From contig OX596340.1 in NCBI GenBank assembly GCA_951394405.1, positions 3,596,001-3,660,000 of the forward strand: a stretch of DNA of 64,000 nucleotides, given 5' to 3'. Shown here piece after piece: positions 6,697 through 31,224 of the stretch. The DNA is from Coprinellus micaceus. Its lineage: Eukaryota > Basidiomycota > Agaricomycetes > Agaricales > Psathyrellaceae. The translations under genes and the position numbers were made by a program. Each line of letters opens with the position of its first letter. The first letter of the stretch is position 1. The notes under the pieces are model-generated. The model did no database searches and was not told the DNA's origin. It saw nothing but the letters and a program-made list of their open reading frames with translations.

Positions 6697-7079
6697 TGTT
6701 GGAAGACAATGCTCATGTCAACTCTATCTCTACAAAGAATACCTCTATTTCGAATGTTTTACTTATCTTCTATTGTTCTACAGAGAACAACAACCACCTT
6801 GTATTATTCCCATTATACTCGCACTTATTGTTCTCTTATCTCCACCTTATCTCCATTCACTGCTATTGTTCTCTACTTATGGAACGTCTATTGTTCTTTC
6901 TTATTGTTCCGCATATAGGTTGTCTATTGTTCTCCACAGTATATAGTCCACACTGTAAGTGGGTGAGTCCCCATCGAACTCTCCCCACTTACAGGTGTGT
7001 ATCTTGTATACCCTACTTACTTTCAATCTAATATCGAACTCTCCCCACTTACAGTGGGTCATACTTGCATCGTTCTACA
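6697..7079 (+). repeat. Copia element 1, 5' LTR
   Basis: 383 bp. Carries the T-type diagnostic bases (GGTGTGTATC, TTTCAATCTAATATCG, GGTTGTC, CTTATTGTTCC) shared with the 3' LTR of element 2, not with its own 3' LTR. Contains tandem copies of CTCCCCACTTACAG near its 3' end. Confidence 0.93.
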
Positions 7080-7097
7080 AGTTATGAGCCCCGGGCT
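7080..7097 (+). other. Primer binding site matching the initiator tRNA-Met anticodon arm
   Basis: GTTATGAGCCCCGGGCT follows the 5' LTR after one base. Its complement contains GGGCTCATAAC, the anticodon loop (CAT) and stem of eukaryotic initiator tRNA-Met. This fits half-tRNA (internal) priming as known for Drosophila copia, rather than priming from a tRNA 3' end. Confidence 0.7.
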
Positions 7098-7667
7098 CCT
7101 CTGATCACGCCATCCGTTATCAGACACCGCAGTAACCGCTCCACTGCCCCTCGATCGCCCATAGCCTACGGCCTCTTCTCGTGTGATATCTCCACCTGAA
7201 GCCTATCTCCCTTCACATTCTCACTATCTTCACTTTCGCTATTTACGTTTCGCTACTTACATTCCACTACCCCTCCTGATACTCAGGAGTACGTATCAAC
7301 TTCCATTACCACCTTCTACCCCGCGGCAAGCATTCCCACTACGGGAAAGAAGCTATCAGGAAGTCCACAGACGCTTATCGTCTGCGGAATTAGAGTAGCG
7401 ATCCTTCTTTGAGAGGCCTGATTCGGTTGGACTGGGGAAACGACGCAACAGTAGCGCTCCCTCCATCCAAACACTTTCAGTAACCGGTACTCAAAGTGAC
7501 AGCGGGGTTCCCTCTGCGGATCTTAGTGTAAAACTTCAACTCCTTTTTAGGATATCTACGTATTGGTCTGTTTTACCTACAAAATCACGGGCACTTTACC
7601 TATCACCTATCTCTTATCGTTTCGTACCTATCATTTCATCCTCTCCCATTCTTCATCACCTACCATC

Positions 7668-10600: not shown

Positions 10601-12500
10601 ACAGGTAGCAGATCGAGGGGGTGCACAGAGAAACAATCAGCTACCCGAAACAGAGGATGAGGATGAGGATGAGGATGAAGACGACGACGACGACGACGAA
10701 CCTGTACAACCCATTGCAGCTGAGGACTTTGACCTTGACGACGAACCTGTAGACATGGAAGATGCACTACGTGCCACCAGTATACTTGATTCTCTCATCA
10801 GTCTATACCACGTCCCCCTGGAAGAGACCCTGACTCTCGACCAAGGCATGGAAATGGCATTCTACATGGCACAGGATAAAGCACTAGGAGCGGCTACACG
10901 CCGTCCAGGAGATGCGCCTCGGACACACTGGGAAGCCTTCGCAGGACCAGATGGCGAACACTGGCAGACTGCAGCACAGGTTGAGATTGACGCCCTAACC
11001 ACCAATGGCACTTGGGAACTAGTTGAACTACCAGAGGGACGAAAAGTTGTTGGATCACGATGGGTCTTCCTCATCAAACGAAAGGCAGATGGCACAATTG
11101 ACCGCTACAAGGCTCGACTTGTTGCCAAGGGATACTCCCAAATGCCTGGAGTAGACTACGATCAGACATGGGCACCTGCATCTCGTCTCACATCAATCCG
11201 CGCGATCTTCGCCCAAGCCGCCATGGAAGGACACTTCATCGAGACCATTGACGTCGACAATGCCTACCTCAACGGAACAATCGAGGAGCAATACGAAGTC
11301 TACATGGAGCAAGCGCCAGGGTTTGAGATCAAGAATCCAGACTCAAAGGGACGGAGATGGGTGTGCCGGCTGAAGAAAGGTTTATATGGCTTGAAACAGA
11401 GCGGACGACTATGGTACCAAAAGCTAGCATCAGAGCTTGAAGCGATCGGATTCACCCAAATAAAATCTGACCCAGCTATCTATGTCTGGGAATTGGATGG
11501 GACCCGTATTGTTGTACCAGTCTTTGTTGACGACATCACCATAACCTCGAAAAGCCAAGAAAAGATCCAATGGCTCAAGGACTCCCTTGCCAAGGTCTTC
11601 AAGATCAAGGATCTTGGACCCACCTCGTACCTACTTGGAATCAAGGTTGACTACGACCGCGAGAACCGAGTCATGCGCCTATCCCAGACTCAATACATCC
11701 TCGACATGCTTGCGCGATTCAAGATGGAGGACTGCTACCCAGTAGGAACTCCAATGGATCCAGGAAGCGGTGCTACTCTCACCAAGTACATTCCAAACAA
11801 GGCTGACGACGAGATGATGAAGAATGTCCCATACATGAATGCCATCGGCGCCCTGATATACCTTATGATTGCGACATGCCCTGACATTGCCTACGCTGTT
11901 GCCAAACTAGCCCAATACAACTCCAACCCCGGACCTATGCATTGGAAAGCAGTCAAGCACCTATTCCGTTACCTCAAGGGAACCAAAGATCTGAAGCTCA
12001 CCTATCGTAACAATGGTAGCAAGATGTCTTCGGAACTCTTTCAAGCATACAGCGACGCAGATCATGCTGGGTGCCTTGACACGCGACGATCCACATCTGG
12101 ATTTGTCATTAAAATGGGATCAGGGGCAGTTAGTTGGTCAGCAAAGAAGCAATCGACGGTGGCAGACTCCTCAACAGAGGCAGAGTACGTCTCTGCGTCG
12201 AGCGCTGGAAGGGACATCATCTGGATGCGCACACTCCTGAAGGAACTTGGTCACGACATCTCTACTCCCTCACCACTCATGGTCGACAACCAATCCGCAC
12301 TCAAGGTTCTCCGGAACCCAGAACTCCATAGCCGAATGAAGCACATCGATATAAAGATGCATTGGATTCGGGATGCTATCAAGCGAGGCGACATTACTGT
12401 TCACTTTTTATCTACTACCGATATGATCGCCGATATATTTACTAAACCTTTACCCAAACCTGCCGTTGAACGTCATCGACTTGCTCTTGGACTCGAGTAA
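7668..12500 (+). CDS. Copia Gag-Pol polyprotein, element 1
   Basis: About 1610 residues from the ATG at 7668 (MDSTTTASPIML). The open frame extends 35 codons upstream without support. Order as in Ty1/copia: Gag region; an atypical CKVHGWQNTHEDKDC motif where a CCHC knuckle is usual; protease DSGATSHM; GAG-pre-integrase HQRLGHIG...CEHCIAGK; integrase with D in HSDLHGPL, D in RDDKGGEY and E in NGVSERLN; a long Pro-rich linker and an acidic run of Glu/Asp (about 10651-10700); reverse transcriptase with WVFLIKRKADG and catalytic FVDDI; RNase H with SDADHAGC and STEAEY. No stop or frameshift, so it may be active. It differs from element 2 by ARQHT/SRQHT, ATCPD/ATRPD and PAVERH/PAIERH. The Cys in ATCPD replaces the commoner Arg (ATRPDI). 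Confidence 0.96.
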   Translation: MDSTTTASPIMLTAYTVQQWKFTVENKAFDLNAYGILTGEEKKPGSNTDDKVKSDYASRRSKLIGYVRSTLDHSQLETVLSGIQVTDIAAIWEKLLETYQPKTSGSRISVLQEMMALRMRSSGFEKETYSDFGSRCMAHASRLTALLLQGAEYLPETTQTVTISSQTTSDGATTTIQSTSRGAHELLTPSAFEEGYTAAHLARDLAISMIPIGLGKDDTILRNTLNHISTGDDNPLEVLDHLRKADSLARNTQLAEGTSAALQVATAAPKKKAKYRCKVHGWQNTHEDKDCRVQNSQKAKIAETPTTAATAEESVMMASVAHIASPLIRRARNNPTNTSWNPDSGATSHMTPNRKWIRNMVAVKIAVSLANNEIVWATGKGEVRFTPRIYGKVGQTVIFNHVLYVPALRNNLFSILSVVKKSKMRVVIEGDSLDFFKNGELLLTATIDGTVGSLNGTTLENTETEAAYISKIEKELLHQRLGHIGKDRLETLMRQDLATGILVKEGTELNDTCEHCIAGKQHRDPFPKLSANRSTELLGRIHSDLHGPLAVQTPIGYRYWITFIDDHSRFKEVALLKHKSDAFQAFKDFVAKSERKLGTKVKELRDDKGGEYMGNDFIQWCKGLGIARQHTVKATPQQNGVSERLNRTLTEGVIAMLNQARLPMMFWGAAVLYYTDILNATPSSTLSNTTSYEVWHKAKPDLSMHRVFGCRVYVHVLRKDRKNLQSHTEPCVFIGFEPGYKGWKCYNPVTKKITISRDVIFAESTFPGLSTVGNEQAYTPIGIRDIWPDADLEPENPPLAPPHAPIAPPPPPHDHPDDGSDESDNDDDGDQAAPRTPERPPKTEPKTPATQQPSVHPSIPPTPTKRDPSSTPSTKQLLPIPALFPGLPAPAEDGPMFPELPPPAPVAPPAPAQKRTRPPPPPPRESIPRKAKVPKAPPLVAQSSRPVRKTATSVKDYQLASGKGRRGTIPVARREGGEQVADRGGAQRNNQLPETEDEDEDEDEDDDDDDEPVQPIAAEDFDLDDEPVDMEDALRATSILDSLISLYHVPLEETLTLDQGMEMAFYMAQDKALGAATRRPGDAPRTHWEAFAGPDGEHWQTAAQVEIDALTTNGTWELVELPEGRKVVGSRWVFLIKRKADGTIDRYKARLVAKGYSQMPGVDYDQTWAPASRLTSIRAIFAQAAMEGHFIETIDVDNAYLNGTIEEQYEVYMEQAPGFEIKNPDSKGRRWVCRLKKGLYGLKQSGRLWYQKLASELEAIGFTQIKSDPAIYVWELDGTRIVVPVFVDDITITSKSQEKIQWLKDSLAKVFKIKDLGPTSYLLGIKVDYDRENRVMRLSQTQYILDMLARFKMEDCYPVGTPMDPGSGATLTKYIPNKADDEMMKNVPYMNAIGALIYLMIATCPDIAYAVAKLAQYNSNPGPMHWKAVKHLFRYLKGTKDLKLTYRNNGSKMSSELFQAYSDADHAGCLDTRRSTSGFVIKMGSGAVSWSAKKQSTVADSSTEAEYVSASSAGRDIIWMRTLLKELGHDISTPSPLMVDNQSALKVLRNPELHSRMKHIDIKMHWIRDAIKRGDITVHFLSTTDMIADIFTKPLPKPAVERHRLALGLE

Positions 12501-12527
12501 ATACAGAGACATTACATTGAGGGGGTG

Positions 12528-12910
12528 TGTTGGAAGACAATGCTCATGTCAACTCTATCTCTACAAAGAATACCTCTATTTCGAACGTTTTACTTATCTT
12601 CTATTGTTCTACAGAGAACAACAACCACCTTGTATTATTCCCATTATACTCGCACTTATTGTTCTCTTATCTCCACCTTATCTCCATTCACTGCTATTGT
12701 TCTCTACTTATGGAACGTCTATTGTTCTTTTCTATTGTTCCGCATATAGGTTATCTATTGTTCTCCACAGTATATAGTCCACACTGTAAGTGGGTGAGTC
12801 CCCATCGAACTCTCCCCACTTACAGGTGCGTATCTTGTATACCCTACTTACTTCCAATCTAACATCGAACTCTCCCCACTTACAGTGGGTCATACTTGCA
12901 TCGTTCTACA
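12528..12910 (+). repeat. Copia element 1, 3' LTR
   Basis: 383 bp, C-type haplotype (GGTGCGTATC, TTCCAATCTAACATCG, GGTTATC, TTTTCTATTG), the same as the 5' LTR of element 2. The following TGTCT (12911-12915) equals the flank beyond the 5' end of element 2. Confidence 0.93.
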
Positions 12911-15900: not shown

Positions 15901-16101
15901 CCAACCAGGTAATTCTTGAATTTCTCGAGGACATCAAGTCATTTGATGGGTACACAGGAGATAGCAATTTACTTGGACTCCGGCGGGGTGCCCCCCCAAG
16001 GGCTGTGACGGATGCTTCATACACCGATATACCTAGTTGTATGCGCAATGACCTCATAGACAGTGATAGTGATGGTGAAGGTGAAGAGGAGGTGGTACAA
16101 A

Positions 16102-16324
16102 TGTTGGAAGTGGTCAATCGACAGCCTAGACTTGATATTGGTGCAGTGCTATATGTGACTGTATCCCACACGGTGACGAGCCTGTGTATGGGGAATGTTT
16201 AAGGCCCCATAGTATCAACATCTGCACACTGTCTATCCATAGGGTGGTAGCTCAGTGGTAGAGCGTCCAGTCTAGTCAACGGATGGTCCCAGGTTCGATT
16301 CCTGGTCACTCCAATACTTTAACA
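16102..16324 (+). mobile_element. tRNA-carrying LTR-like unit, copy 1
   Basis: 223 bp, TGTTGGAAGTGG ... ACTTTAACA (TG...CA ends), with a perfect 5-bp TSD ACAAA (16097-16101, 16325-16329). Inserted in the last exon of the KDZ1 transposase. The open frame now runs into the unit and stops at 16202. Carries a tRNA-like sequence near its 3' end. No partner LTR or internal region nearby. Confidence 0.88.
16241..16313 (+). tRNA. tRNA-Thr(AGT)-like sequence inside LTR-like unit, copy 1
   Basis: 73 nt with an intact D arm and A box (TAGCTCAGTGG) and an intact T arm and B box (GGTTCGATTCC, stem CCAGG/CCTGG). The anticodon loop CTAGTCA gives AGT. The anticodon stem has one bulged A and the acceptor stem has an A-C mismatch at position 1, so it is likely a relic used as a pol III promoter rather than a working tRNA. 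Confidence 0.55.
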
Positions 16325-16373
16325 ACAAAGGGGAGGTGTCATTGACTTTCTCTCCGAGGTAGCTATGTCTTAA

Positions 16374-17364
16374 TGTACTACTCTGACCTGCAAGGATAAG
16401 ATCAGATCACTTAAAAACTCTCAATTGAAGGTTAATGCATCGGATAACCTATCTATGGGGTGTTAAGCTCAAGAGATAAGTTGAAATGGTTGAGATTTCG
16501 CTACAAGGGTGCTTGGGTCACCCACCAGAGCCACCCAGTCAAATCCGAAGTGGAATATCTCAACAACGGAATGAGATATAAAAGAATGGATTGCTGTTGC
16601 GCGTTCGGATTGAGAACTGCATTAGAATGCATATGTTACGAGACTAGGTTAAGTGGGAGGTTGATCTGGAACGAACCTAAACTTCCAGACAAGAGATCAA
16701 AATTGCGATGATTTCGCATTTTTACGCTCGTTTGAGCTTTATAAATCAATATATCCACAAAACGAACTCAATATTCGAATTCCTCGCCCAAATTTCTTTT
16801 AGGGTCATAGTTTCTGAGAGCAGTTTCTCCAGGTGGTTCAGTTGCATTGAGACAAAAGTTGCAATTTCTGACATCAGATGCACAAAAATCACTCAAAGCT
16901 CACTCAAGTTTCGAACTGAAACTCACCCAATGTCTACCTTCACCTAGACGACATGGAGAGGATCCCAAACTTCGCTGGTATGATGCTCTATATTCCTTAC
17001 CTATCCTAATGGCAGTGTATTTACACTCACCGCACCATATTTCATGGTCCTGAAGGTACGAAATTGCGGTAGATGCTCGTCAAGTTGACAAGCGTCACTT
17101 GCCATCAGTCCCATCAAAACAAACCAAGAGTCACTTGATCTCACTTTGCCTCCTCTTTTTTCCAACCCTCACCCTCACCAGGCCCATGTCTGCCCTCGAG
17201 AGCGATGCTGCAAGAGGCTGGGGCTTTCTTCTCATCGGTGGCCAGGCCCATGGCACGTGGCGCCAAACGATGACAGGCTTGTACATCACATATCGCTTCT
17301 GAATTGAACGGCGCTGATGTGGCATTAACAGCGAGGACCTTGTTGGACCTGTTGGTGGTCCCCT
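16374..17364. other. Non-coding KDZ1 interior
   Basis: AT-richer stretch after the transposase stop. No frame with convincing coding character. Ends at TCCCC (17360-17364), the TSD of the next LTR-like unit. Confidence 0.45.
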
Positions 17365-17586
17365 GTTAAAGTATTGGAGTGACCAGGAATCGAACCTGGG
17401 ACCATCCATTGACTAGACTGGACGCTCTACCACTGAGCTACCACCCTATGGATAGACAGTGTGCAGATGTTGATACTATGGGGCCTTAAACATTCCCCAT
17501 ACACAGGCTCGTCACTGTGTGGGATACAGTCACATATAGCACTGCACCAATATCAAGTCTAGGCTGTCGATTGACCACTTCCAACA
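17365..17586 (-). mobile_element. tRNA-carrying LTR-like unit, copy 2
   Basis: 222 bp on the minus strand, with a perfect 5-bp TSD TCCCC (17360-17364, 17587-17591). Nearly identical to copies 1 and 3, with one base missing in the variable/T-arm junction and one change in the anticodon stem. Confidence 0.88.
17376..17447 (-). tRNA. tRNA-Thr(AGT)-like sequence inside LTR-like unit, copy 2
   Basis: 72 nt, same layout as copy 1, with A box and B box intact. It has lost one C just before the T stem and carries a C-to-T change next to the anticodon loop, so it is further from a working tRNA. Confidence 0.45.
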
Positions 17587-17639
17587 TCCCCCACTCCCTC
17601 TGGCACTGGAGTACAATGAGGATGAGGGTGACCTCCACC

Positions 17640-18372
17640 ACTTGGTGGGGTGCTTGTCAACAAACCACTGCAACAGCAGTAAAGGGGAACTAACAAAACC
17701 ACTGCAACTGGAGGGGGGTTTGTAAACAAATCCCTATAGCTAGCTGCAGCTATCCGGCAGCCATCATAATTGATGTACCCTTCCCAATTTGGTAGGCGCC
17801 ATGTTTGTAATGCAGTCACATATTGCGCGCTACTGCATGTCCACTCAATCAAACAAACCAAATTATATGTTGCGGGCTCTTGAAAATGTTCTCAAACGGG
17901 CTCAAATAAAATTTATTATAGAAGTGCGCCCACCCGGCGTGTGCACCAGCACCCTACGGCTGTTAAATCGAGGCCCTTAGGCCGAGCCCGTGATGAGCGG
18001 CGGCAAGGAACCCGGGGGCCCCACATATGTGACTGACAGTCTCACATCGGGGGCCCTGGGACCCTCCCCGGAGCATGGTGGGGCCCCCCCAGAGGGAGGG
18101 GTGCCATGTGGAGTGGGAGGGAGCAACCCATGTGGGAATGTGGGGGCTGTCGCAAATGAAAAACAACTTGCGTCACATGATCGCATGTTGAACTTGCCTA
18201 ATTGAGACATCAGAAGTTGATCAGAAGAAGCCTCATCAAAGTCCAAGAAGCAGGGAAGCACCAGCAACAGCTTCTCCAGGGGATTGTAAACAAACCATGC
18301 TGCTGTTGCAGTGGTTTTGTAAGTTCCCCTTTGCTGCTATTGCAGGTGGTTTGTTTACAAAATCCCCATCTA
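17640..18372. mobile_element. Small inverted-repeat (MITE-like) element
   Basis: The ends (about 17645-17737 and 18278-18368) are inverted copies of each other, sharing AACAAACCAC, GCAAAGGGGAACT-like and ACAAAACCACTGCAAC blocks, each about 85-90 bp. The interior of about 540 bp has no gene; it includes GC-rich inverted blocks around 18020-18090 (GGGGGCCCC-type). I could not fix exact termini or a TSD. It lies in the 5' part of gene F. Confidence 0.55.
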
Positions 18373-21300
18373 CACCTGTGACCTCATCCCAGTAATCCAG
18401 CCCTATGTCAAGATCCTGAGGGCACTTGAGAAAGAGTGGGTTGAGCTCGGCCATGAGACCCTTGTTAGGGTCGTCATCGAGCTCTTTGCCCCACTTATTT
18501 CCACTCTGTGGGCACACCGCACTGTGGTCTATGCCCTTTTGGAGTCTGATCGTGGTGGACGTCACATCGTGGCAATGCGCTGAGAGTATGTGCTATTGTT
18601 CTTTTTATGTTTGCCTATCTCACCTTGAGATATCACAGAACCGTCAAGCCATACATTCATTACGTTCGGGGTCGTCATCCCAAGCCCAACTACACCCTCT
18701 ATGCCTTCCCCTCCGTCGTCCATTCACTCATCTGGACCATTGCGTGTGGAAATGAGAACCTGGAGGCTTGGGGTTTAAGTGAGTGGGCAGGTGTTCCGGG
18801 GGTTGAGAGAATAGCAAGATTGTTTGCTGCTGCCAGAGCAGCCCATGTTGCGGAGTTACCGGTCATTGAGGTCTCGTCGGACACAGACGATGACCCAGAA
18901 TCTGACCGTGACAACCATGAGTCATTGGATCGTCCTTCTATTCTGAAATCTCACATATACTCCCGCCTTGCTGTCACCTCCTTTGCCTCCCTTCCATCGT
19001 CCTCCACTCCAGCTGCTTCCGTCTTGAAGGCGCGCCACCTTGTCACTACTGAGCCTGCACTGGCTGATGACTCCTCTGAACATGCCTCTGAGGACGACGT
19101 AGCACCTCCCCCGTACTCGGATCCACCATCAGACTCTGAGTCTGAACCAAACCTCAACATTCGGGCGCCTTCACCTAGGTCACCCCAGCTGGCCGGCTCT
19201 AAGCCGGACCCAGCTGGCCCCAGCTCCCCGGCTTAGAGCCGGCCAGCTTGGCAGGCAGCTGGGCTGGGCTGGGCCGGCTGGGTCCGAGCTCAGCTAAAAA
19301 CGCGTCAGCTCAGCTGCGGGCTGGCGCATATCCAGCTGAGCTGAGCTGTTCCCAGCCAAGCTGAGAGTCATCCAGCTGATGCGAGGAGCTGAGCTGCTTG
19401 CACCATGGGGGCTCAGCTTGAGCGTGTGAAGCTCAGCTCCAGTACAAGTTCCTCCCATCGTACCAGGCTATCCAGCTGAGCTGGACCCTACAGCTGAGCT
19501 GACGCCCAGGTGAGCTCAGCTTGGGTGTTACAGTCACACTGTGACAGATGTGACCAGTGTGTGACACAACAAACAATGACAAACATGACAAACAAACAAA
19601 TGATGATGTCATACATACACAAATAGATATGATGTCATGCAGATCTGAGATCGGAAATGACACTCATTTAGATAAGAGTATGCAAAATCGCATGCCTGAT
19701 ATCAGAGTCAATTCTTGGCCGATAAGGATGATTTTGGTATTGTTAGAAAGCCCTTGTCAACCTCTATTTGGGGGTGTTTGTTGCGATGTCAAGTTGGGCT
19801 CCCACGGATGCCATTTGGCGGATTTCAAATTCCAGGCTTTGCGAGGACACTGTTTAGGTTATTTTGGCACACAATGTGATGTGCAAACAGGAGGGCATGT
19901 ACTACTGCATGACTACACATAACATACTGGGCTGCAGGGGTATTTGGATAATTAGAAGACAGGTTTTGGCCATAGGGGCAAGTGGACACATGCAATGTGA
20001 TCACCCTGCCACCTGCTACCACCCATAAATCACACAAGAGCACACCCTTAAATTTCCCTGACCCCATCGGATGGTATGCGAGGGCCAGTACCAGCATGCG
20101 ACAATCCCTTACACACTGAGGTTCAGACGTATTTGGGTTATTAGTGAACCAATTTTGACATTGGGGGCTGGCAAACACATGCAGTGTAATCACCCAGCTA
20201 TTTGCTATCACCAATAAATCACACAAGAACCCCCCATCAAATTTGCCTGACCTCATATGGTGGTGTGTATGGCACATGCGTGCTTGTTCTATTGCATGGG
20301 CTTTCAAACAGATACTTTTGGATCACCCAAAGGCTATTGGGACAGTGATCTCACGTGGTATAAACCACAGCTCCAAGTACCAGACCAGCACCATCCATTG
20401 CAATCAGGTCCCAAGCAAGTTGTGTGAAAACCGATATATTGCGGGTTTGGGGCGCCTGTAATGGTTCCCACGCTTTATGATTTAGGTAATTGGGAGGAGG
20501 TCATCCACAAATACAAATCTCAAAAGACACCTAAGCCAACGGACCACCCATTACCAAGATATTGACCAAACCGCCCACTTGGTACCAGTTGTAACCCAAG
20601 TGCAAAGTTGTTCAGCACAACTGCTCCAAGTCAGCACTGTTCCTCCTATATCTTGGGCATGTGTGGTCCGTTTCCTTTCCGGTCTTTTGTATTCTGCATC
20701 GTTTGGAGGCCTAGTTTTTATGTGCATGGTAGTCAACCTTCTCACGGTCTGCATCATACTGAATGGGCATGAATATAGCTGTTGCTCATCATTTTTGGCA
20801 CTTTGAGCTGAATTCAGCAGGACTGGTGTGGATTTAAGAGGGGAGAGATGATGTAAAAGGTAGTGTAGGACACATGTAACACTTTTCAATATGTAGTGTG
20901 TCGTTCAAAGCTTTATGGGGCCATGAAATGACCTTCGCACATGCAGATCACCAGGATTTTACAGTTTTCAGTTGTTTTACAAAGATCAGGTATAGATAAA
21001 AGGGGTATGAGGGCTATGGCAGAGGCCCTGCACCATTCCCATTCCATCAATACAACAAACATGCATCAGACAGCAGGCATTGAGGTGGAAACTGGGCTCG
21101 CAAGTACTCAAATTATGAGAAATAGACGAAAATGCTGATTTTTGACAGTTGGATTGATGAGGTTCAAGCGGGGTTACTTACATTGAAAAGCCCCGAATGA
21201 GGGCTTTCGAACGATATCAAAATCACCCTTATCGGCCAAGAACTGCATGTGATCGGGCTCATCGCGATCTGTTTGTTTCTTATCTAAATGAGTGTGACAT

Positions 21301-22224
21301 CATCCTGTGCCTGAAAATCATGACATCACAGATAGATCTTATCAGCATGACATCACATTTATTTTTAGCTTACATGATGTCATAATCAAATTTGGTGAGG
21401 TGTGACATGGGCGTGACAAACAAATACAAACATACACAAAGCGTGACAGGAGCGTGACAGGAGCTCAGCTTCACAGCTCAGCTAGGCAGAGCTAGCTGAG
21501 CTGCGTAAGCTCAGCTGGGGCTCTAAAAATGGAATCGGAAATAATTACAAGTGTGGAGCTGGGCTACCCCCAGCCCGAGCTGAGGGCGACCCAGCTCTCC
21601 CCAGCTGGCTCAGCTCAGCTTGCATGACAGCTCAGCCCACTGTCAATGAGCTGAGCTAACCCCACGCTCAGCTCAGCTCCACGCCCAGCTCAGCTATTTT
21701 AGCTGAGCCGGACGCCAGCCGGCCCAGCCCAGCCCAGCTGCCTGCCAAGCTGGCCGGCTCTAAGCCGGGGAGCTGGGGCTAGCTGGGTCCGGCTTAGAGC
21801 CGGCCAGCTGGGGTGACCTAGGTGGGCGCCTTTGACACCCCCCTGGGGCCCAATCATCAATCCGACCATCATGGCTGCACTCAAGAACACCGCTATCTTC
21901 ATGATCAAGCGAATGCCATCTGCAACGTCCGCAGGCGTCTACGAGCAGCGTGTTATCAAGGTGTCTGACACGGGGGATGTTGAGCGTCTCCAGGGTTTAA
22001 TGGAAGAGGCCGTTATGAGGACCACCATTCAGATCGATACATTTTACTACCTGACGACTCACGGCTGGGCCGACACACCACTTATCCCTGCTATTGAGAC
22101 GGCACTCGCCCTCCACACCAACCACAACTCTTTCATCACTCACATAGTCAATGCTGGTATGCCTGCTAGTGAGGCTGACTGGTTCGTCACCTTCGTCCTA
22201 GCTGGTGAGAATGGTCACTGGTGA
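18373..22224 (+). pseudogene. KDZ1 passenger gene F, interrupted
   Basis: No recognised family. Coding-like pieces: 18373-18585 (PIYTCDLIPVIQPYVKIL...LWAHRTVVYALLE), 18630-19171 (YHRTVKPYIHYVRG...LSEWAGVPGVERIARLFAAARAAHV, then an acidic Ser/Asp linker and PPPYSDPPSDSES) and 21833-22224 (TPPWGPIINPTIMAALKN...IQIDTFYYLTTHGW...EADWFVTFVLAGENGHW). The second and third pieces are one exon split by the 2653-bp element. Removing it with one TSD copy restores the frame (RAP-LTPPWGP). A TGA at 18581-18583, just before the intron at 18586-18629, breaks the first join. The 5' end is unclear because the small inverted-repeat element sits there. It lies between the transposase and gene G, on the same strand as both before the inversion. 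Confidence 0.6.
19172..21824. mobile_element. Non-autonomous TIR element rich in AGCTGAGCT/AGCTCAGCT motifs
   Basis: 2653 bp with an exact 8-bp TSD GGCGCCTT (19164-19171, 21825-21832) and TIRs starting CACCTAGGTCACCCCAGC. Inverted similarity extends about 500 bp inward, through GGCCGGCTCTAAGCCGG hairpins, dense AGCTGAGCT/AGCTCAGCT subterminal motifs and a TGTGACA/ATGATGTCAT-rich zone (about 19530-19680 and 21270-21470). The middle holds two diverged tandem units of about 180 bp (about 19926-20102 and 20115-20285). No transposase frame. The CACCT terminus and 8-bp TSD are shared with KDZ1, so it may be mobilised by a KDZ enzyme; a hAT origin (also 8-bp TSD) is the alternative. Confidence 0.85.
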
Positions 22225-22370
22225 GCATCTGCCCTGGTCCCCTTTCTTGAAGATCTCGTGCTCACCCTCTTGTAGAGCCTACGCGACGCATCTTTGTTGA
22301 TCCCCACGTGATACTATCTAGATTATAAATATGTTATGCTGTCTCATACTCCCTCTTTACATTCGTATTT

Positions 22371-23902
22371 ATGGTCGTCTTTCACCCCACCACTATCAAG
22401 AGGAGAAAGTCCAGTGCTCGCCACCCCACTCGAAAGCTCATCTGTCGTCTTCCAATTCGTCGCCACAAGCTCACAAAAGTCGAGAGTGATGCCCGCAAGG
22501 CTCGGAACCTGGAAACCCGGCAGACAATTGCTCGGGTTCTTGAAGAGGAGCGAGCAGCCATCTGGGACCGTGCCGATGCCCTTCGTGGGGAGCATGGCAT
22601 GCACACCCGCCAGTGGTGGCACGACGCCATTATCCAGGCTGCCCCCAAGGCAAAACGAGTCAACCCTCTTGGTCGGTGGAATGCCTTTGTCGCTCAGCGT
22701 GTTCGAGAAATCAATGACGGTGAGTCCACCCTTCTCCTACTGTCTACATCTATTAACATATTTTTGGCTTGTGTAGAGCGCCGGCAGAACGGCGAACCAT
22801 GCGTCAGGCCTTCCGACATGTCAACAACCCTTGCACAAGAGTGGAATGCGATGAGCACACTGAGGCTACCGTGAAGGTTCACAATGTTCCGATCCGCTCC
22901 TTTCATGATGTGAGGGCTCAGGCACAGAAGTGGAAGGCTGAGGTGAGTGTCGTCGGTCTCGTTTCTCATCCTCTTACTCACCCCTCATTCCTCCACCAGT
23001 CTGAAGCTCTTCAAGCACGCAACAATGTTGAAGTTGTTTTCACCATTGTCCGCACCAACTTCACCCAGTACAACAAGCCTATCGTTTGGGCAACCTCTCG
23101 ACGTGTCGATGACTTCTTCAATCACGTACTCAAGGCCGACCTAGCAGAGGTTAGCCTACGCCTTGAATCATATATGCTCTCAGGCATTACTGGTCTGTAG
23201 TCACTTGTTCATTTACTGGTGTTTGGTGTATATTGACCAGCTTGCAGGTGTAACCCAGAACTATACTCAAAGTCTAACCGAGCTCAAGTCCAACGTCGCC
23301 CGCTTGATCCACTCAAAGCTCAGTGAGTTTCCATGCCTCCTCTCATTAGTTGTACCATACTAACATGCCTCTAGATGCAGCTGCTGGATACCCAGTCTCC
23401 CAGATGATCTACACAAACTTCACGCGCCGTATCACCCTCCGCCACCGCCTCGTTATCAAGGGTTGGCCAGTTAAGATCAAGTTTGCAAACCCGAGCGACA
23501 TTGGTGGTAGGGCGGACCTTGAGGTGTTGAGGAAGGCTTGGGAGAGTGCGGAGACACACTTCGAGAGGCTCGACGATGAGGCCTTTGAGAAGCTGTGTGA
23601 AGATCTATCGTCCATCGACGCCGCCGCTGAAGGTGGCGATGAAGATGAGGAGCCCCACCCGACACCAACCCTTGACACCCCCTTACCCTCCACCTCCTCT
23701 CCTGCGCCTATCATCACCGTCCCCACCGCTTCCGAGTCGTTCTCTACGCTTACAACGCCCACCACCATAGCAATGCACCCCGCCACTGCCTCCATCCCCT
23801 CCACCTCCACTCTTGCACCTCTCGGCACCCCCTCTATGCCCTTTGTGTTCGCGCCCATGCCATCCACTATCACCCCCATGTTCTCCAACGTCACTCCTCT
23901 AC
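22371..23902 (+). pseudogene. KDZ1 passenger gene G (5' and middle part)
   Basis: Starts MVVFHPTTIKRRKSS at 22371. Coding continues through LPIRRHKLTKVESDARKARN, EEERAAIWDRADALRGEHG, WHDAIIQ, VNPLGRWNAFVAQRVREIND, then after an intron (acceptor before CGCCGG, about 22778) RRTMRQAFRHVN and KVHNVPIRSFHDVRAQAQKW, then NNVEVVFTIVRTNFTQYNKP, VDDFFNHVLKAD, NYTQSLTELKSNVARLIHSK, AAAGYPVSQMIYTNF and HRLVIKGWPVKIKFANPSDI, ending in an acidic and Pro/Thr/Ser-rich tail. The pattern RWNAF ... HNVPI-x-FHD ... YTNF ... GWP-x-K-x-F-x-NPS belongs, from memory, to a large agaricomycete family without known function. The frame is cut at TCTAC (23898-23902) by the copia LTR; its end is at 6691-6387. Broken, so only a truncated product is possible. 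Confidence 0.75.
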
Positions 23903-24285
23903 TGTAGAACGATGCAAGTATGACCCACTGTAAGTGGGGAGAGTTCGATATTAGATTGAAAGTAAGTAGGGTATACAAGATACACACCTGTAAGTGGGGA
24001 GAGTTCGATGGGGACTCACCCACTTACAGTGTGGACTATATACTGTGGAGAACAATAGACAACCTATATGTGGAACAATAAGAAAGAACAATAGACGTTC
24101 CATAAGTAGAGAACAATAGCAGTGAATGGAGATAAGGTGGAGATAAGAGAACAATAAGTGCGAGTATAATGGGAATAATACAAGGTGGTTGTTGTTCTCT
24201 GTAGAACAATAGAAGATAAGTAAAACGTTCGAAATAGAGGTATTCTTTGTAGAGATAGAGTTGACATGAGCATTGTCTTCCAACA
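23903..24285 (-). repeat. Copia element 2, 3' LTR
   Basis: 383 bp, T-type haplotype, matching the 5' LTR of element 1 at all four diagnostic sites. Polypurine tract (read as CACCCCCTC on the plus strand) at 24286-24294. Confidence 0.93.
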
Positions 24286-24312
24286 CACCCCCTCAATGTA
24301 ATGTCTCTGTAT

Positions 24313-27300
24313 TTACTCGAGTCCAAGAGCAAGTCGATGACGTTCAATGGCAGGTTTGGGTAAAGGTTTAGTAAATATATCGGCGATCATATCAGTAGTA
24401 GATAAAAAGTGAACAGTAATGTCGCCTCGCTTGATAGCATCCCGAATCCAATGCATCTTTATATCAATGTGCTTCATTCGGCTGTGGAGTTCTGGGTTCC
24501 GGAGAACCTTGAGTGCGGATTGGTTGTCGACCATGAGTGGTGAGGGAGTAGAGATGTCGTGACCAAGTTCCTTCAGGAGTGTGCGCATCCAGATGATGTC
24601 CCTTCCAGCGCTCGACGCAGAGACGTACTCTGCCTCTGTTGAGGAGTCTGCCACCGTCGATTGCTTCTTTGCCGACCAACTAACTGCCCCTGATCCCATT
24701 TTAATGACAAATCCAGATGTGGATCGTCGCGTGTCAAGGCACCCAGCATGATCTGCGTCGCTGTATGCTTGAAAGAGTTCCGAAGACATCTTGCTACCAT
24801 TGTTACGATAGGTGAGCTTCAGATCTTTGGTTCCCTTGAGGTAACGGAATAGGTGCTTGACTGCTTTCCAATGCATAGGTCCGGGGTTGGAGTTGTATTG
24901 GGCTAGTTTGGCAACAGCGTAGGCAATGTCAGGGCGTGTCGCAATCATAAGGTATATCAGGGCGCCGATGGCATTCATGTATGGGACATTCTTCATCATC
25001 TCGTCGTCAGCCTTGTTTGGAATGTACTTGGTGAGAGTAGCACCGCTTCCTGGATCCATTGGAGTTCCTACTGGGTAGCAGTCCTCCATCTTGAATCGCG
25101 CAAGCATGTCGAGGATGTATTGAGTCTGGGATAGGCGCATGACTCGGTTCTCGCGGTCGTAGTCAACCTTGATTCCAAGTAGGTACGAGGTGGGTCCAAG
25201 ATCCTTGATCTTGAAGACCTTGGCAAGGGAGTCCTTGAGCCATTGGATCTTTTCTTGGCTTTTCGAGGTTATGGTGATGTCGTCAACAAAGACTGGTACA
25301 ACAATACGGGTCCCATCCAATTCCCAGACATAGATAGCTGGGTCAGATTTTATTTGGGTGAATCCGATCGCTTCAAGCTCTGATGCTAGCTTTTGGTACC
25401 ATAGTCGTCCGCTCTGTTTCAAGCCATATAAACCTTTCTTCAGCCGGCACACCCATCTCCGTCCCTTTGAGTCTGGATTCTTGATCTCAAACCCTGGCGC
25501 TTGCTCCATGTAGACTTCGTATTGCTCCTCGATTGTTCCGTTGAGGTAGGCATTGTCGACGTCAATGGTCTCGATGAAGTGTCCTTCCATGGCGGCTTGG
25601 GCGAAGATCGCGCGGATTGATGTGAGACGAGATGCAGGTGCCCATGTCTGATCGTAGTCTACTCCAGGCATTTGGGAGTATCCCTTGGCAACAAGTCGAG
25701 CCTTGTAGCGGTCAATTGTGCCATCTGCCTTTCGTTTGATGAGGAAGACCCATCGTGATCCAACAACTTTTCGTCCCTCTGGTAGTTCAACTAGTTCCCA
25801 AGTGCCATTGGTGGTTAGGGCGTCAATCTCAACCTGTGCTGCAGTCTGCCAGTGTTCGCCATCTGGTCCTGCGAAGGCTTCCCAGTGTGTCCGAGGCGCA
25901 TCTCCTGGACGGCGTGTAGCCGCTCCTAGTGCTTTATCCTGTGCCATGTAGAATGCCATTTCCATGCCTTGGTCGAGAGTCAGGGTCTCTTCCAGGGGGA
26001 CGTGGTATAGACTGATGAGAGAATCAAGTATACTGGTGGCACGTAGTGCATCTTCCATGTCTACAGGTTCGTCGTCAAGGTCAAAGTCCTCAGCTGCAAT
26101 GGGTTGTACAGGTTCGTCGTCGTCGTCGTCGTCTTCATCCTCATCCTCATCCTCATCCTCTGTTTCGGGTAGCTGATTGTTTCTCTGTGCACCCCCTCGA
26201 TCTGCTACCTGTTCACCCCCTTCACGCCTGGCCACTGGAATTGTACCGCGTCTCCCTTTTCCACTCGCGAGTTGGTAGTCCTTGACGGACGTTGCTGTTT
26301 TCCGTACAGGCCGGGAGCTTTGTGCTACTAGCGGTGGAGCTTTTGGAACTTTCGCCTTGCGAGGGATTGATTCGCGAGGGGGAGGGGGAGGTGGCCGGGT
26401 GCGTTTCTGGGCAGGTGCTGGAGGTGCGACTGGTGCTGGAGGAGGTAGTTCTGGGAACATGGGTCCGTCCTCAGCTGGTGCAGGGAGCCCTGGGAACAAG
26501 GCAGGTATTGGTAGCAGCTGTTTCGTTGAGGGAGTAGATGAGGGATCCCTTTTCGTAGGAGTAGGTGGAATTGACGGATGGACAGACGGTTGCTGTGTGG
26601 CTGGCGTTTTAGGCTCAGTCTTAGGAGGTCGCTCGGGAGTCCGAGGTGCTGCTTGGTCTCCATCGTCATCATTGTCGCTCTCGTCTGATCCATCGTCTGG
26701 ATGGTCATGGGGAGGCGGTGGTGGCGCAATGGGAGCATGAGGTGGTGCAAGAGGTGGATTCTCCGGTTCGAGATCGGCGTCTGGCCAGATGTCCCTAATG
26801 CCTATAGGCGTGTATGCCTGTTCATTCCCTACGGTTGAGAGACCAGGGAAGGTGCTTTCAGCGAAGATAACATCCCGGGATATGGTGATCTTCTTCGTCA
26901 CTGGATTGTAGCATTTCCAGCCTTTGTAGCCTGGTTCAAAGCCGATAAAGACACAAGGCTCCGTGTGTGACTGGAGGTTCTTGCGGTCCTTGCGCAATAC
27001 ATGGACGTATACGCGGCAGCCAAATACTCGGTGCATGGACAGATCGGGCTTTGCTTTATGCCAGACTTCATAGGAGGTAGTATTCGATAATGTAGAGGAT
27101 GGGGTCGCATTCAGGATGTCTGTGTAATAGAGTACGGCTGCACCCCAGAACATCATGGGAAGGCGTGCTTGGTTGAGCATGGCAATGACCCCTTCAGTTA
27201 GTGTGCGATTGAGTCGTTCGCTGACACCGTTCTGTTGGGGTGTGGCTTTAACTGTGTGTTGCCGTGAGATACCAAGTCCCTTGCACCATTGAATGAAGTC

Positions 27301-29145
27301 GTTCCCCATGTATTCCCCCCCTTTATCATCACGAAGTTCCTTGACCTTTGTGCCGAGCTTTCGCTCACTCTTGGCAACAAAGTCTTTGAAGGCTTGGAAT
27401 GCGTCACTCTTGTGTTTCAGGAGGGCGACCTCCTTGAACCGTGAGTGGTCATCAATGAATGTGATCCAGTATCGATAGCCGATTGGTGTCTGTACAGCGA
27501 GGGGTCCATGGAGGTCCGAGTGAATCCGTCCAAGGAGCTCTGTTGAGCGATTCGCTGATAGCTTTGGGAATGGATCCCGATGTTGCTTCCCTGCAATGCA
27601 GTGTTCGCAGGTGTCGTTGAGTTCCGTGCCCTCCTTCACCAGGATGCCAGTGGCCAAGTCTTGGCGCATAAGCGTCTCCAGACGATCCTTCCCAATGTGC
27701 CCTAACCTCTGATGTAATAGTTCCTTCTCGATCTTGGAGATGTAGGCTGCCTCCGTTTCCGTGTTTTCGAGCGTTGTCCCATTGAGAGAGCCAACAGTTC
27801 CGTCGATGGTAGCTGTTAGGAGTAGCTCGCCATTCTTGAAGAAGTCAAGCGAGTCTCCTTCAATTACGACGCGCATTTTGCTCTTCTTAACAACAGAGAG
27901 GATCGAGAATAGGTTATTGCGAAGTGCGGGAACATATAGTACATGGTTGAATATCACAGTTTGGCCAACCTTTCCGTATATACGAGGCGTGAAACGTACT
28001 TCCCCCTTTCCTGTAGCCCAGACGATCTCGTTGTTGGCGAGAGACACAGCAATTTTCACCGCAACCATGTTACGGATCCACTTGCGATTGGGTGTCATAT
28101 GTGAGGTTGCACCTGAGTCTGGGTTCCAGGAAGTATTAGTGGGGTTGTTACGAGCTCGACGGATAAGGGGACTTGCGATGTGGGCAACACTGGCCATCAT
28201 GACGCTCTCCTCAGCAGTCGCTGCTGTGGTAGGTGTCTCCGCGATCTTGGCCTTCTGGGAGTTCTGGACGCGGCAGTCCTTGTCCTCATGCGTGTTCTGC
28301 CAACCGTGGACCTTGCACCTGTACTTCGCCTTCTTCTTCGGGGCAGCTGTGGCTACCTGAAGAGCGGCGGATGTCCCCTCAGCAAGCTGAGTGTTGCGAG
28401 CGAGGGAGTCGGCCTTGCGAAGGTGATCGAGGACTTCAAGGGGATTGTCGTCCCCAGTGGAGATGTGGTTGAGCGTATTGCGGAGGATGGTGTCATCCTT
28501 GCCAAGACCAATGGGGATCATGCTGATCGCAAGATCGCGCGCGAGATGAGCAGCCGTGTATCCTTCCTCGAAAGCAGAGGGCGTAAGGAGTTCATGTGCT
28601 CCCCGACTGGTGGATTGAATCGTCGTTGTTGCTCCATCCGATGTCGTTTGGGAGGAGATGGTGACGGTCTGTGTTGTCTCTGGAAGGTATTCTGCTCCTT
28701 GCAGGAGGAGCGCAGTGAGACGTGAGGCGTGTGCCATGCAACGCGATCCGAAGTCGGAGTAGGTCTCCTTCTCGAAACCTGAGGACCTCATTCGAAGTGC
28801 CATCATCTCCTGAAGGACACTGATGCGAGAGCCAGAAGTCTTGGGCTGGTAGGTTTCCAAGAGCTTCTCCCAGATAGCAGCGATGTCGGTGACTTGGATG
28901 CCAGAGAGGACGGTCTCGAGTTGGGAGTGGTCGAGAGTAGACCGGACGTAGCCGATGAGCTTGGAGCGGCGACTGGCATAGTCGGACTTGACCTTGTCGT
29001 CGGTATTGCTCCCAGGTTTTTTCTCTTCCCCAGTGAGGATGCCGTAGGCGTTGAGGTCGAAGGCCTTGTTCTCGACAGTGAACTTCCACTGCTGCACAGT
29101 GTAAGCCGTGAGCATGATGGGTGAGGCCGTAGTGGTAGAGTCCAT
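24313..29145 (-). CDS. Copia Gag-Pol polyprotein, element 2
   Basis: Same 1610-residue polyprotein as element 1, start at about 29145 (MDSTTTASPIML), no stop or shift. All catalytic blocks are present: DSGATSHM, integrase D-D-E (HSDLHG, RDDKGGEY, NGVSERLN), FVDDI and SDADHAGC/STEAEY. Here the reverse transcriptase/RNase H linker reads LMIATRPDIAYA with the Arg usual for copia, and the integrase reads GLGISRQHT. Since the two elements have exchanged halves, differences inside the coding region could help place the crossover. Confidence 0.96.
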   Translation of the reverse strand: MDSTTTASPIMLTAYTVQQWKFTVENKAFDLNAYGILTGEEKKPGSNTDDKVKSDYASRRSKLIGYVRSTLDHSQLETVLSGIQVTDIAAIWEKLLETYQPKTSGSRISVLQEMMALRMRSSGFEKETYSDFGSRCMAHASRLTALLLQGAEYLPETTQTVTISSQTTSDGATTTIQSTSRGAHELLTPSAFEEGYTAAHLARDLAISMIPIGLGKDDTILRNTLNHISTGDDNPLEVLDHLRKADSLARNTQLAEGTSAALQVATAAPKKKAKYRCKVHGWQNTHEDKDCRVQNSQKAKIAETPTTAATAEESVMMASVAHIASPLIRRARNNPTNTSWNPDSGATSHMTPNRKWIRNMVAVKIAVSLANNEIVWATGKGEVRFTPRIYGKVGQTVIFNHVLYVPALRNNLFSILSVVKKSKMRVVIEGDSLDFFKNGELLLTATIDGTVGSLNGTTLENTETEAAYISKIEKELLHQRLGHIGKDRLETLMRQDLATGILVKEGTELNDTCEHCIAGKQHRDPFPKLSANRSTELLGRIHSDLHGPLAVQTPIGYRYWITFIDDHSRFKEVALLKHKSDAFQAFKDFVAKSERKLGTKVKELRDDKGGEYMGNDFIQWCKGLGISRQHTVKATPQQNGVSERLNRTLTEGVIAMLNQARLPMMFWGAAVLYYTDILNATPSSTLSNTTSYEVWHKAKPDLSMHRVFGCRVYVHVLRKDRKNLQSHTEPCVFIGFEPGYKGWKCYNPVTKKITISRDVIFAESTFPGLSTVGNEQAYTPIGIRDIWPDADLEPENPPLAPPHAPIAPPPPPHDHPDDGSDESDNDDDGDQAAPRTPERPPKTEPKTPATQQPSVHPSIPPTPTKRDPSSTPSTKQLLPIPALFPGLPAPAEDGPMFPELPPPAPVAPPAPAQKRTRPPPPPPRESIPRKAKVPKAPPLVAQSSRPVRKTATSVKDYQLASGKGRRGTIPVARREGGEQVADRGGAQRNNQLPETEDEDEDEDEDDDDDDEPVQPIAAEDFDLDDEPVDMEDALRATSILDSLISLYHVPLEETLTLDQGMEMAFYMAQDKALGAATRRPGDAPRTHWEAFAGPDGEHWQTAAQVEIDALTTNGTWELVELPEGRKVVGSRWVFLIKRKADGTIDRYKARLVAKGYSQMPGVDYDQTWAPASRLTSIRAIFAQAAMEGHFIETIDVDNAYLNGTIEEQYEVYMEQAPGFEIKNPDSKGRRWVCRLKKGLYGLKQSGRLWYQKLASELEAIGFTQIKSDPAIYVWELDGTRIVVPVFVDDITITSKSQEKIQWLKDSLAKVFKIKDLGPTSYLLGIKVDYDRENRVMRLSQTQYILDMLARFKMEDCYPVGTPMDPGSGATLTKYIPNKADDEMMKNVPYMNAIGALIYLMIATRPDIAYAVAKLAQYNSNPGPMHWKAVKHLFRYLKGTKDLKLTYRNNGSKMSSELFQAYSDADHAGCLDTRRSTSGFVIKMGSGAVSWSAKKQSTVADSSTEAEYVSASSAGRDIIWMRTLLKELGHDISTPSPLMVDNQSALKVLRNPELHSRMKHIDIKMHWIRDAIKRGDITVHFLSTTDMIADIFTKPLPKPAIERHRLALGLE

Positions 29146-29715
29146 GATGGTAGGTGATGAAGAATGGGAGAGGATGAAATGATAGGTACGAAACGATAAG
29201 AGATAGGTGATAGGTAAAGTGCCCGTGATTTTGTAGGTAAAACAGACCAATACGTAGATATCCTAAAAAGGAGTTGAAGTTTTACACTAAGATCCGCAGA
29301 GGGAACCCCGCTGTCACTTTGAGTACCGGTTACTGAAAGTGTTTGGATGGAGGGAGCGCTACTGTTGCGTCGTTTCCCCAGTCCAACCGAATCAGGCCTC
29401 TCAAAGAAGGATCGCTACTCTAATTCCGCAGACGATAAGCGTCTGTGGACTTCCTGATAGCTTCTTTCCCGTAGTGGGAATGCTTGCCGCGGGGTAGAAG
29501 GTGGTAATGGAAGTTGATACGTACTCCTGAGTATCAGGAGGGGTAGTGGAATGTAAGTAGCGAAACGTAAATAGCGAAAGTGAAGATAGTGAGAATGTGA
29601 AGGGAGATAGGCTTCAGGTGGAGATATCACACGAGAAGAGGCCGTAGGCTATGGGCGATCGAGGGGCAGTGGAGCGGTTACCGCGGTGTCTGATAACGGA
29701 TGGCGTGATCAGAGG

Positions 29716-29733
29716 AGCCCGGGGCTCATAACT
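29716..29733 (-). other. Primer binding site, element 2
   Basis: Same GTTATGAGCCCCGGGCT as in element 1, complementary to the anticodon arm of initiator tRNA-Met. Confidence 0.7.
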
Positions 29734-30116
29734 TGTAGAACGATGCAAGTATGACCCACTGTAAGTGGGGAGAGTTCGATGTTAGATTGGAAGTAAGTAG
29801 GGTATACAAGATACGCACCTGTAAGTGGGGAGAGTTCGATGGGGACTCACCCACTTACAGTGTGGACTATATACTGTGGAGAACAATAGATAACCTATAT
29901 GCGGAACAATAGAAAAGAACAATAGACGTTCCATAAGTAGAGAACAATAGCAGTGAATGGAGATAAGGTGGAGATAAGAGAACAATAAGTGCGAGTATAA
30001 TGGGAATAATACAAGGTGCTTGTTGTTCTCTGTAGAACAATAGAAGATAAGTAAAATGTTCGAAATAGAGGTATTCTTTGTAGAGATAGAGTTGACATGA
30101 GCATTGTCTTCCAACA
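29734..30116 (-). repeat. Copia element 2, 5' LTR
   Basis: 383 bp, C-type haplotype, matching the 3' LTR of element 1 and not its own partner. Two private changes (CGAACA instead of CGAACG, ACAAGCACC instead of ACAACCACC). Confidence 0.93.
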
Positions 30117-30236
30117 AGACAGGGGTTCTTGGTGTGGGCGCTTGAGTGACTTCCCGACATCCTTGGATCCTTTCCCGTAGGAAGACGATCCAAACGACAC
30201 GGATACGGACCTGGATGAGCCTTTCAACCCCACCAT
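30117..30236 (-). pseudogene. KDZ1 transposase, detached 5' exon
   Basis: Starts MVGLKGSSRSVSVSFGSSS at 30236 and runs to ...RPHQEPLS at 30117. With the single target TGTCT it continues in frame at 12916 as GIEQIAANLREKEQARKRAK. An upstream part of the frame is open, so the start is a best guess: it lies 143 bp inside the TIR and no signal favours the farther Met codons. Confidence 0.75.
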
Positions 30237-30378
30237 ACCCCGTGTTAAATAGCCTAGATTTTTATGTACATGTAGGATGTAGTGGGTGAGCTTTACATTC
30301 ATGTATTCATCGGGGCCGAGGACACATACTATTGAGGAAGACCGGCGGGGGGAATAATGATAAACACGAACACTGTCT

Positions 30379-30693
30379 AAGCAACGGCGCACGGCGAGCT
30401 CGTAATACCTACGGGGCAGCCATCAGAGGCAGACGAGCCGACGCCAAGCGGCCATGTGCAGCGCGGGGGACCGTCGGTATCTCGCCGACAGTGTGAGGTC
30501 ATATGCCCTCGTGGGCCTTTGACCACCTGGGCCCTCCCATTGCCCTTCAGGAAACCTACCATGTTTCCTTTTTCGTGATCGAGCCAGGAATTACCGCCCG
30601 GTAGTGGAAATCAAGCGATCCATGCGCACCATGCATGCGATAGCCCCCAGCTATCGCAAGCACAGGACGCGGTGGATTAGTGATGCCCAGGTG
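30379..30693 (-). repeat. KDZ1 right TIR
   Basis: About 315 bp, inverted copy of 5799-6110 with a few substitutions (for example CCACCGCGTCC preceded by AATCC instead of AACCC). Ends CCCAGGTG, followed by TSD CTCGTACA (30694-30701). Confidence 0.88.
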
Positions 30694-31001
30694 CTCGTAC
30701 AAGGGGCCACAAGGCAAGCAATCCCGGTATGGCAGGTTGACTGGGAGGGTAGTCGCTCCCACGCTCCGGGGTCCAGCTGAGTCATCGACTCGGCAGCGTC
30801 GGCATCATATTTCGCCGAGCGCTGGATGTTACGGTCGCGTACATTTGGAGAAGAGTACCGTACTCGTATCTACATAATGTTAAGCACCCTTTTTGCTGCG
30901 TTTGTTCACCCGAGAGACCGTGTTAGCGACAGAGCCCGACCGAGCTCGCTTCAGCTCCTCTTCAATCCTCTGCTTCTCCAGACTGTGAGGCAACCCCAAC
31001 C

Positions 31002-31224
31002 TGTTAAAGTATTGGAGTGACCAGGAATCGAACCTGGGACCATCCGTTGACTAGACTGGACGCTCTACCACTGAGCTACCACCCTATGGATAGACAGTGT
31101 GCAGATGTTGATACTATGGGGCCTTAAACATTCCCCATACACAGGCTCGTCACCATGTGGGATACAGTCACATATAGCACTGCACCAATATCAAGTCTAG
31201 GCTGTCGATTGACCACTTCCAACA
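31002..31224 (-). mobile_element. tRNA-carrying LTR-like unit, copy 3
   Basis: 223 bp, minus strand, with a perfect 5-bp TSD CAACC (30997-31001, 31225-31229). Inserted in the last exon of the P-like transposase gene, whose frame now ends in the unit at 31168. Confidence 0.88.
31013..31085 (-). tRNA. tRNA-Thr(AGT)-like sequence inside LTR-like unit, copy 3
   Basis: 73 nt, identical in layout to copy 1: same A and B boxes, loop CTAGTCA, same bulged base in the anticodon stem. The identical flaw in independent insertions shows it was copied as part of the mobile unit. Confidence 0.55.

Follow-up and report, generated by a model that had tools for sequence, protein, structure and literature searches.

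Cassandra of plants is a terminal-repeat retrotransposon in miniature (TRIM) that, as Kalendar et al. are said to have described in 2008, carries 5S rRNA in its long terminal repeat (LTR). To our knowledge this is the sole RNA polymerase III (pol III) gene known to be embedded in an LTR. In copia of Drosophila and Ty5 of yeast the anticodon arm of the initiator tRNA-Met pairs with the primer binding site (PBS), whereby a tRNA half serves as primer; we know of no tRNA gene in the LTR of either element. A short dispersed element of ~500 bp with pol III boxes, megB1, has been reported from basidiomycetes. Here we describe two families of non-coding elements from the mushroom Coprinellus micaceus, TRIM1 and TRIM2, whose LTRs contain a tRNA-like unit as candidate pol III promoter. 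The analysis starts from a stretch of 64,000 nt (C7:3596001-3660000, in the following the window) and extends to the genome of 50.3 Mb in 17 contigs.

The definition of TRIMs including tandem and inverted forms follows the main text of Gao et al. 2016 (PMC4717578). In that text large relatives are given for 11 of 289 TRIM subfamilies, those in flowering plants being Ty1-copia elements. Among TRIM families 5S rRNA is ascribed there to Cassandra only, and the word "tRNA" is absent. The main texts on Pleurotus (PMC4905642) and Laccaria (PMC3411680) lack the term tRNA as well, though this is no proof that such elements have gone undescribed.

TRIM1 is a complete miniature element

An earlier note on the window had described three copies of a 223 bp unit resembling an LTR, each with its own target site duplication (TSD). 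The copies and the tRNA-like units inside them are as follows.

16102..16324, + strand: TRIM1 solo LTR, 223 bp, TG...CA ends, perfect 5-bp TSD ACAAA
16241..16313, + strand: tRNA-like unit (Thr AGT call) in the LTR of the 16102 copy, found by ARAGORN, Rfam 45.4 bits
17364..17586, - strand: TRIM1 solo LTR, 223 bp, TSD TCCCC (+ strand)
17375..17447, - strand: tRNA-like unit in the LTR of the 17364 copy, 46.5 bits, with a CpG-to-TpG change in the anticodon arm
31002..31224, - strand: TRIM1 solo LTR, 223 bp, TSD CAACC (+ strand)
31013..31085, - strand: tRNA-like unit in the LTR of the 31002 copy, found by ARAGORN, Rfam 45.4 bits

All three copies are present, the middle one being one base longer than in the note (start at 17364 instead of 17365). 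Their termini are TGTTGGAAG...TTTAACA, pairwise identity is 98.7-99.6%, and the TSDs ACAAA, TCCCC and CAACC are indeed perfect and differ from each other.

We term TRIM1 the complete element to which the 223 bp unit belongs as LTR, a non-coding TRIM of Copia type with a length of 532 bp. Its layout is LTR (223 bp), internal part (86 bp) and LTR (223 bp), bordered by 5-bp TSDs. The note had considered a solo LTR of a miniature retrotransposon and proposed a search for LTR pairs in direct orientation with a PBS and a polypurine tract (PPT) in between. Such pairs exist at four loci, 309 bp start to start, and the complete two-LTR elements support the solo LTR interpretation. Three of them (L001, L003 and L004) are simple LTR-86-LTR elements of 532 bp each, while L002 has a third LTR and a second internal part, 841 bp in total. 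An outer 5-bp TSD is found in all four (L001 GAAAA, L002 AAGCA, L003 GTATC, L004 AAACA). LTRs of the same element are identical in three cases and differ at 3 sites in L004.

Genome-wide the LTR yields 44 matches, 13 of which, including the window copy at 16102, reach 100% identity with top score. Nine LTRs belong to the four complete elements, 31 are single, two form an inverted dimer, one is truncated (L033) and one is a fragment of 46 bp. Flanks of 25 bases are shared by two locus pairs only, L014/L015 and L026/L029. Excluding L015 (flanks of L014) and L029 (flanks of L026) from the singles leaves 29 distinct solo sites, 28 with a perfect TSD and one, L013, matching in 4 of 5 bases. Single LTRs lying kilobases apart in the same orientation (e.g. 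L008 and L009) have a separate TSD each. As the flanks differ between sites, the copies do not stem from one segmental duplication, a possibility the note had raised. Moreover, the empty site of L011 before insertion was found inside the LTR of copia-A, a coding element of the window described below (75/75 bases).

The note had further asked whether the unit might be the LTR of a known full-length family. No coding element with the TRIM1 LTR was found, and throughout the genome this LTR adjoins a PBS only in elements with the 86 bp internal part.

Two further arrangements were seen. At L028 (975-1374) two LTRs are inverted head to head with ACTCA on both sides, and the outer ends are LTR 3' ends; this dimer is an aberrant integration product. 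L014 and L015 (C8:237000-249800) share identical flanks in opposite orientation ~10.5 kb apart and perhaps represent a large palindromic duplication.

Substitutions were counted in 33 TRIM1 LTRs, namely the 29 distinct solos plus one LTR, the 5' one, per complete element. Eleven matches did not enter the count: duplicates with shared flanks, additional LTRs of complete elements (second and third), the dimer, the truncated copy and the fragment. CpG transitions account for 44 of 68 substitutions and stem from just 6 CpGs. This fits methylation damage of young copies and suggests that the repeats carry CpG methylation.

Primer binding site and coding Copia elements

The internal part of TRIM1 opens directly after the LTR with the PBS AGTTATGAGCCCCG. 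It is exactly complementary to 14 bases (CGGGGCTCATAACT) of the host initiator tRNA-Met, positions 27-40 in our numbering, in the anticodon arm. The initiator tRNA-Met gene sequence occurs at seven places of the genome, three of which were read. Since the PBS pairs with the anticodon arm and not with the 3' end, priming would be by a tRNA half. Before the 3' LTR the internal part closes with the PPT, GGGGG(G/A)GTG. The primer motif ACAAGTTATGAGCCC was found with at most one mismatch at 123 genome places, compared to 1 for the reversed control. About a quarter of these places were read individually, and two coding Copia elements of the window are among the 123.

6697..12910, + strand: copia-A element, first copy, PBS at 7080, ORF of 1645 aa at 7563-12500, candidate helper
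23903..30116, - strand: copia-A element, second copy, 99.6% identical to the first, same PBS

In the 1645-aa frame, RVT_2, SH3_retrovirus, Pol_BBD and gag_pre-integrs score above their Pfam cut-offs, while rve and Retrotran_gag_2 stay below theirs. RVT_2 has 132 matches in the genome, 130 of them above cut-off. Copia-A has the first 9 LTR bases (TGTTGGAAG) and the PBS in common with TRIM1, and its PPT ends in GGGGGTG. A second coding element, Copia-B (L104), has an open frame of 1544 codons with an RVT_2 match, the PBS of TRIM1 and the PPT AAGGGAGTG. TRIM1 lacks a Copia-type pol frame, yet its PBS, PPT type and first LTR bases are those of Copia elements encoding RVT_2. A derivation of TRIM LTRs or internal parts from copia-A or Copia-B was considered and rejected on the basis of the alignments.

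The flanking 5-mers of the two inverted copia-A copies are swapped (GTAGA/TGTCT and TGTCT/GTAGA), which indicates recombination between the copies. Positions 12911-23902 in between (11 kb), two TRIM1 copies included, have therefore probably been inverted. Elsewhere in the window (50059-51918) lies a frame of 619 aa, which we take to resemble an F-box protein of a kind common in mushrooms.

The tRNA-like unit of TRIM1

Near the 3' end of the LTR the note had recognized a tRNA-like gene with both internal promoter boxes. Both are present: the A box TAGCTCAGTGG starts at LTR position 147 and the B box GGTTCGATTCC at 191, that is 44 bases start to start. ARAGORN reports a tRNA in all three window copies. 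Two of them are called Thr(AGT) and the third is unassigned. Rfam likewise scores the units as tRNA (45.4-46.5 bits, cut-off 29), and at the gathering cut-off Rfam finds tRNA only and no 5S on the window, L071 and L085. The flaw seen in the anticodon stem is real and consists of one bulged A besides five pairs (by eye). The acceptor end shows an additional A-C mismatch, marked in the Rfam alignment. With these two defects the unit does not have the sound stems of a host tRNA-Thr gene.

No host donor of the unit was found: the 89-base tRNA part matched 40 places genome-wide and all 40 are element copies. The A-box pattern has 42 exact occurrences, of which 40 lie in element copies and two in tRNA-Trp genes. 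Among the sampled host tRNAs, Ile(AAT) comes closest to both the TRIM1 (66.2%) and the TRIM2 unit (68.0%; L052, which is TRIM2, left out), hence the label Thr(AGT) is due to the anticodon alone. This comparison covered 24 nuclear tRNA entries including L052, and 63 of 1686 candidates were scored in the Rfam search of the genome; with samples of this size a donor may have been missed. The units of TRIM1 and TRIM2 are 65.8% identical, which is below the match of either to host tRNA-Ile. At least this degree of likeness is reached by 13 of 253 sampled tRNA pairs (L052 included). The genome also has intron-bearing nuclear tRNA genes and one contig with a mitochondrial-looking tRNA set, which mark it as eukaryotic.

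A second family with the same design

TRIM2 was found among twenty loci fetched around PBS places, two of which (L071 and L085) have an ARAGORN tRNA. In L071 the LTRs are 280 bp long with the tRNA-like unit near the 3' end, the internal part measures 62 bp and the TSD is CATGG. All 16 genome-wide matches of the LTR were read. They comprise two complete elements of 621-622 bp (L071 and L091, four LTRs), eight solo LTRs, two chimeras and two fragments. TSDs are present at both complete elements and perfect at six of the eight solos (not L092 and L097). TRIM1 and TRIM2 are hence of TRIM type in size (532 and 621-622 bp) and in their terminal repeats (223 and 280 bp, TG...CA), with internal parts (86 and 62 bp) too short for retrotransposon proteins.

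With the tRNA part removed, the LTRs of the two families show no alignment above chance (57 of 300 shuffles score as high). Between the tRNA parts there is an alignment that 0 of 300 shuffles match, as expected for any two tRNAs. In both families the tRNA-like unit lies just before the PBS and has the A box TAGCTCAGTGG; the B box of TRIM2 is GGTTCAAACCC, again 44 bases away start to start (by eye). The pattern of GGTTC 18-48 bases before CAAGTTATGAGC occurs at 5 genome places, all TRIM1 or TRIM2; being exact it is not exhaustive and misses L004 and L091.

Next to the two TRIM2 LTR fragments (L099 763-868 and L100 675-730) lies the poly-A end of another retroposon. A reading as transcripts ending near the tRNA start was rejected for this reason, and the fragments say nothing about start sites.

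Proposed propagation and alternatives

On balance we consider it probable that TRIM1 is a Copia-type TRIM whose tRNA-like unit acts as pol III promoter of the LTR and which is copied by Copia machinery. Judged from its sequence, the unit near the LTR 3' end is most likely an internal (type 2) pol III promoter. Transcription would start just upstream of it in the 5' LTR and extend across the internal part into the 3' LTR, such that the tRNA-like stretch could double as the repeated R region on which the first strand transfer depends. Copia particles would take up the RNA and reverse-transcribe it with the initiator tRNA half as primer, and Copia integrase would insert the cDNA. Recombination between the LTRs could then leave solo LTRs. 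Such read-through is plausible for TRIM1: TTTT is absent from its 309 unique bases (window LTR and L001 internal part), hence pol III could pass.

Several observations weigh against this model. The missing TTTT says little, as 617 of 2000 shuffles and the Copia-B LTR lack it too. In TRIM2 a T4 run follows three bases after the tRNA-like unit. Host tRNA genes (27 sampled, L052 dropped) all have a run of at least four T within 60 bases and in 6 of 27 the first run is T4, so pol III might stop in TRIM2 and yield no full-length RNA. Read-through in TRIM2 is thus doubtful and is the main weakness of the model. The 73-base tRNA-like unit of TRIM1 holds 29 of the 68 substitutions, a rate per base above that of the rest of the LTR. 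Ten fall into the B-box region (LTR 192-202), eight of them at the B-box CpG, and none at the A box. Conservation of the unit thus does not exceed that of the remaining LTR, and selection acting after insertion is not apparent. The minimum-energy fold of the unit is not a cloverleaf, and an equally good fold is reached by 24 of 200 shuffles. The TRIM LTR bodies and internal parts show no similarity to copia-A or Copia-B beyond shuffles. Finally, the chimeras described below concern TRIM2, not TRIM1.

A pol II transcript from U3, as in ordinary LTR elements, would agree with some of these points. The tRNA-like unit would then be a separate pol III gene, as is the 5S of Cassandra, or a passenger without role in the synthesis of genomic RNA. 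This is in line with the T4 run of TRIM2, T4 being the first run in those six host genes, and with the conservation data. Moreover, ARAGORN finds no tRNA in the copia-A LTRs of the window, nor in those of the sampled Copia PBS loci except the TRIM2-bearing L071 and L085, so the helpers manage without such a unit. A passenger, however, is not expected at the same place in two families with otherwise unrelated LTRs, and no T4 stop follows the unit of TRIM1. We therefore regard pol II transcription with a bystander tRNA-like unit as rather unlikely.

The helper part of the pol III model is addressed by two of the four loci holding a TRIM2 internal part. L085 and L087 are chimeras in which a Copia-B LTR (99.0% and 98.4% identical to that of L070, respectively) is followed by PBS and internal part of TRIM2 and then by a TRIM2 LTR, which has lost its B box in L087. 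The parts are joined at the common PBS. By the standard scheme of reverse transcription a whole U3-R-U5 beside a PBS exists only as plus-strand strong-stop DNA or finished LTR. Pairing of such DNA from Copia-B with a TRIM2 minus strand at its PBS end would yield the chimera. The structure of the joins points to TRIM2 and Copia-B cDNA being made in one particle, with Copia-B as presumable helper for TRIM2. For TRIM1 no chimera was seen, all five internal parts lying between TRIM1 LTRs.

DNA recombination between neighbouring elements could produce chimeras that are uninformative on common particles. Some TRIM2 copies do lie near Copia-B LTRs (L091 and L095), and both families share the short PBS. 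Each composite is nevertheless enclosed by a single matching 5-bp TSD (L085 GGTGA, L087 TTCCT), and both joins are at the PBS. Uninterrupted paralogues of both sites occur in L104, seen for L085 in an alignment of the joined flanks and for L087 as blocks overlapping by 5 bases. Recombination at the DNA level is thus an improbable origin.

The tRNA score of 45-49 bits with both boxes and the high copy number would also fit a tRNA-derived short interspersed element (SINE), or host tRNA-Thr genes that spread as a family together with their flanks. Both are ruled out for practical purposes, as the tRNA is placed towards the 3' end of a TG...CA unit whose TSDs have a constant length of 5 bp, LTRs are paired with PBS and PPT, an A-rich tail is missing and 40 of 40 matches of the tRNA part are in element copies.

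Returning to the pol III promoter model, we tentatively extend it to a fungal class of TRIMs, where the pol II promoter of the LTR may have given way to a tRNA-derived pol III promoter, either at least twice or in one ancient ancestor. An LTR of this class would need to keep only the tRNA-like R region, serving as promoter and as strand-transfer repeat, together with terminal bases, PBS and PPT.

Comparison with known systems

In TRIM1 and TRIM2 a candidate promoter and a precise primer site come together in little sequence, with candidate helpers in the same window. For one of the two families the helper is named by chimeric insertion scars. The questions of promoter and helper thereby become directly testable.

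TRIM1 resembles copia of Drosophila and Ty5 in its anticodon-arm PBS and differs from these coding elements by being non-coding. The likeness to megB1 extends to size and pol III boxes, by the general description of that element alone. Tested against tRNA-derived SINEs with their 5' tRNA head, A/T-rich or LINE-like tail and variable TSD, TRIM1 does not conform. With Cassandra it shares a pol III-type gene inside a TRIM LTR. In contrast, the 5S of Cassandra represents a type 1 internal promoter and the tRNA-like unit of TRIM1 a type 2. TRIM1 would thus add a second kind of LTR-embedded pol III gene.

Compared to the plant and ant TRIMs Katydid, SMART, Wukong and PbTRIM, as characterized in the main text of PMC4717578, the architecture is the same: less than 1 kb, non-coding, TSDs of 4-6 bp, and tandem (L3I2) as well as inverted forms. 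TRIM1 differs from the TRIMs of that text in that no large relative sharing its LTR was found, in its occurrence in a fungus, and in the tRNA-like unit within its LTR.

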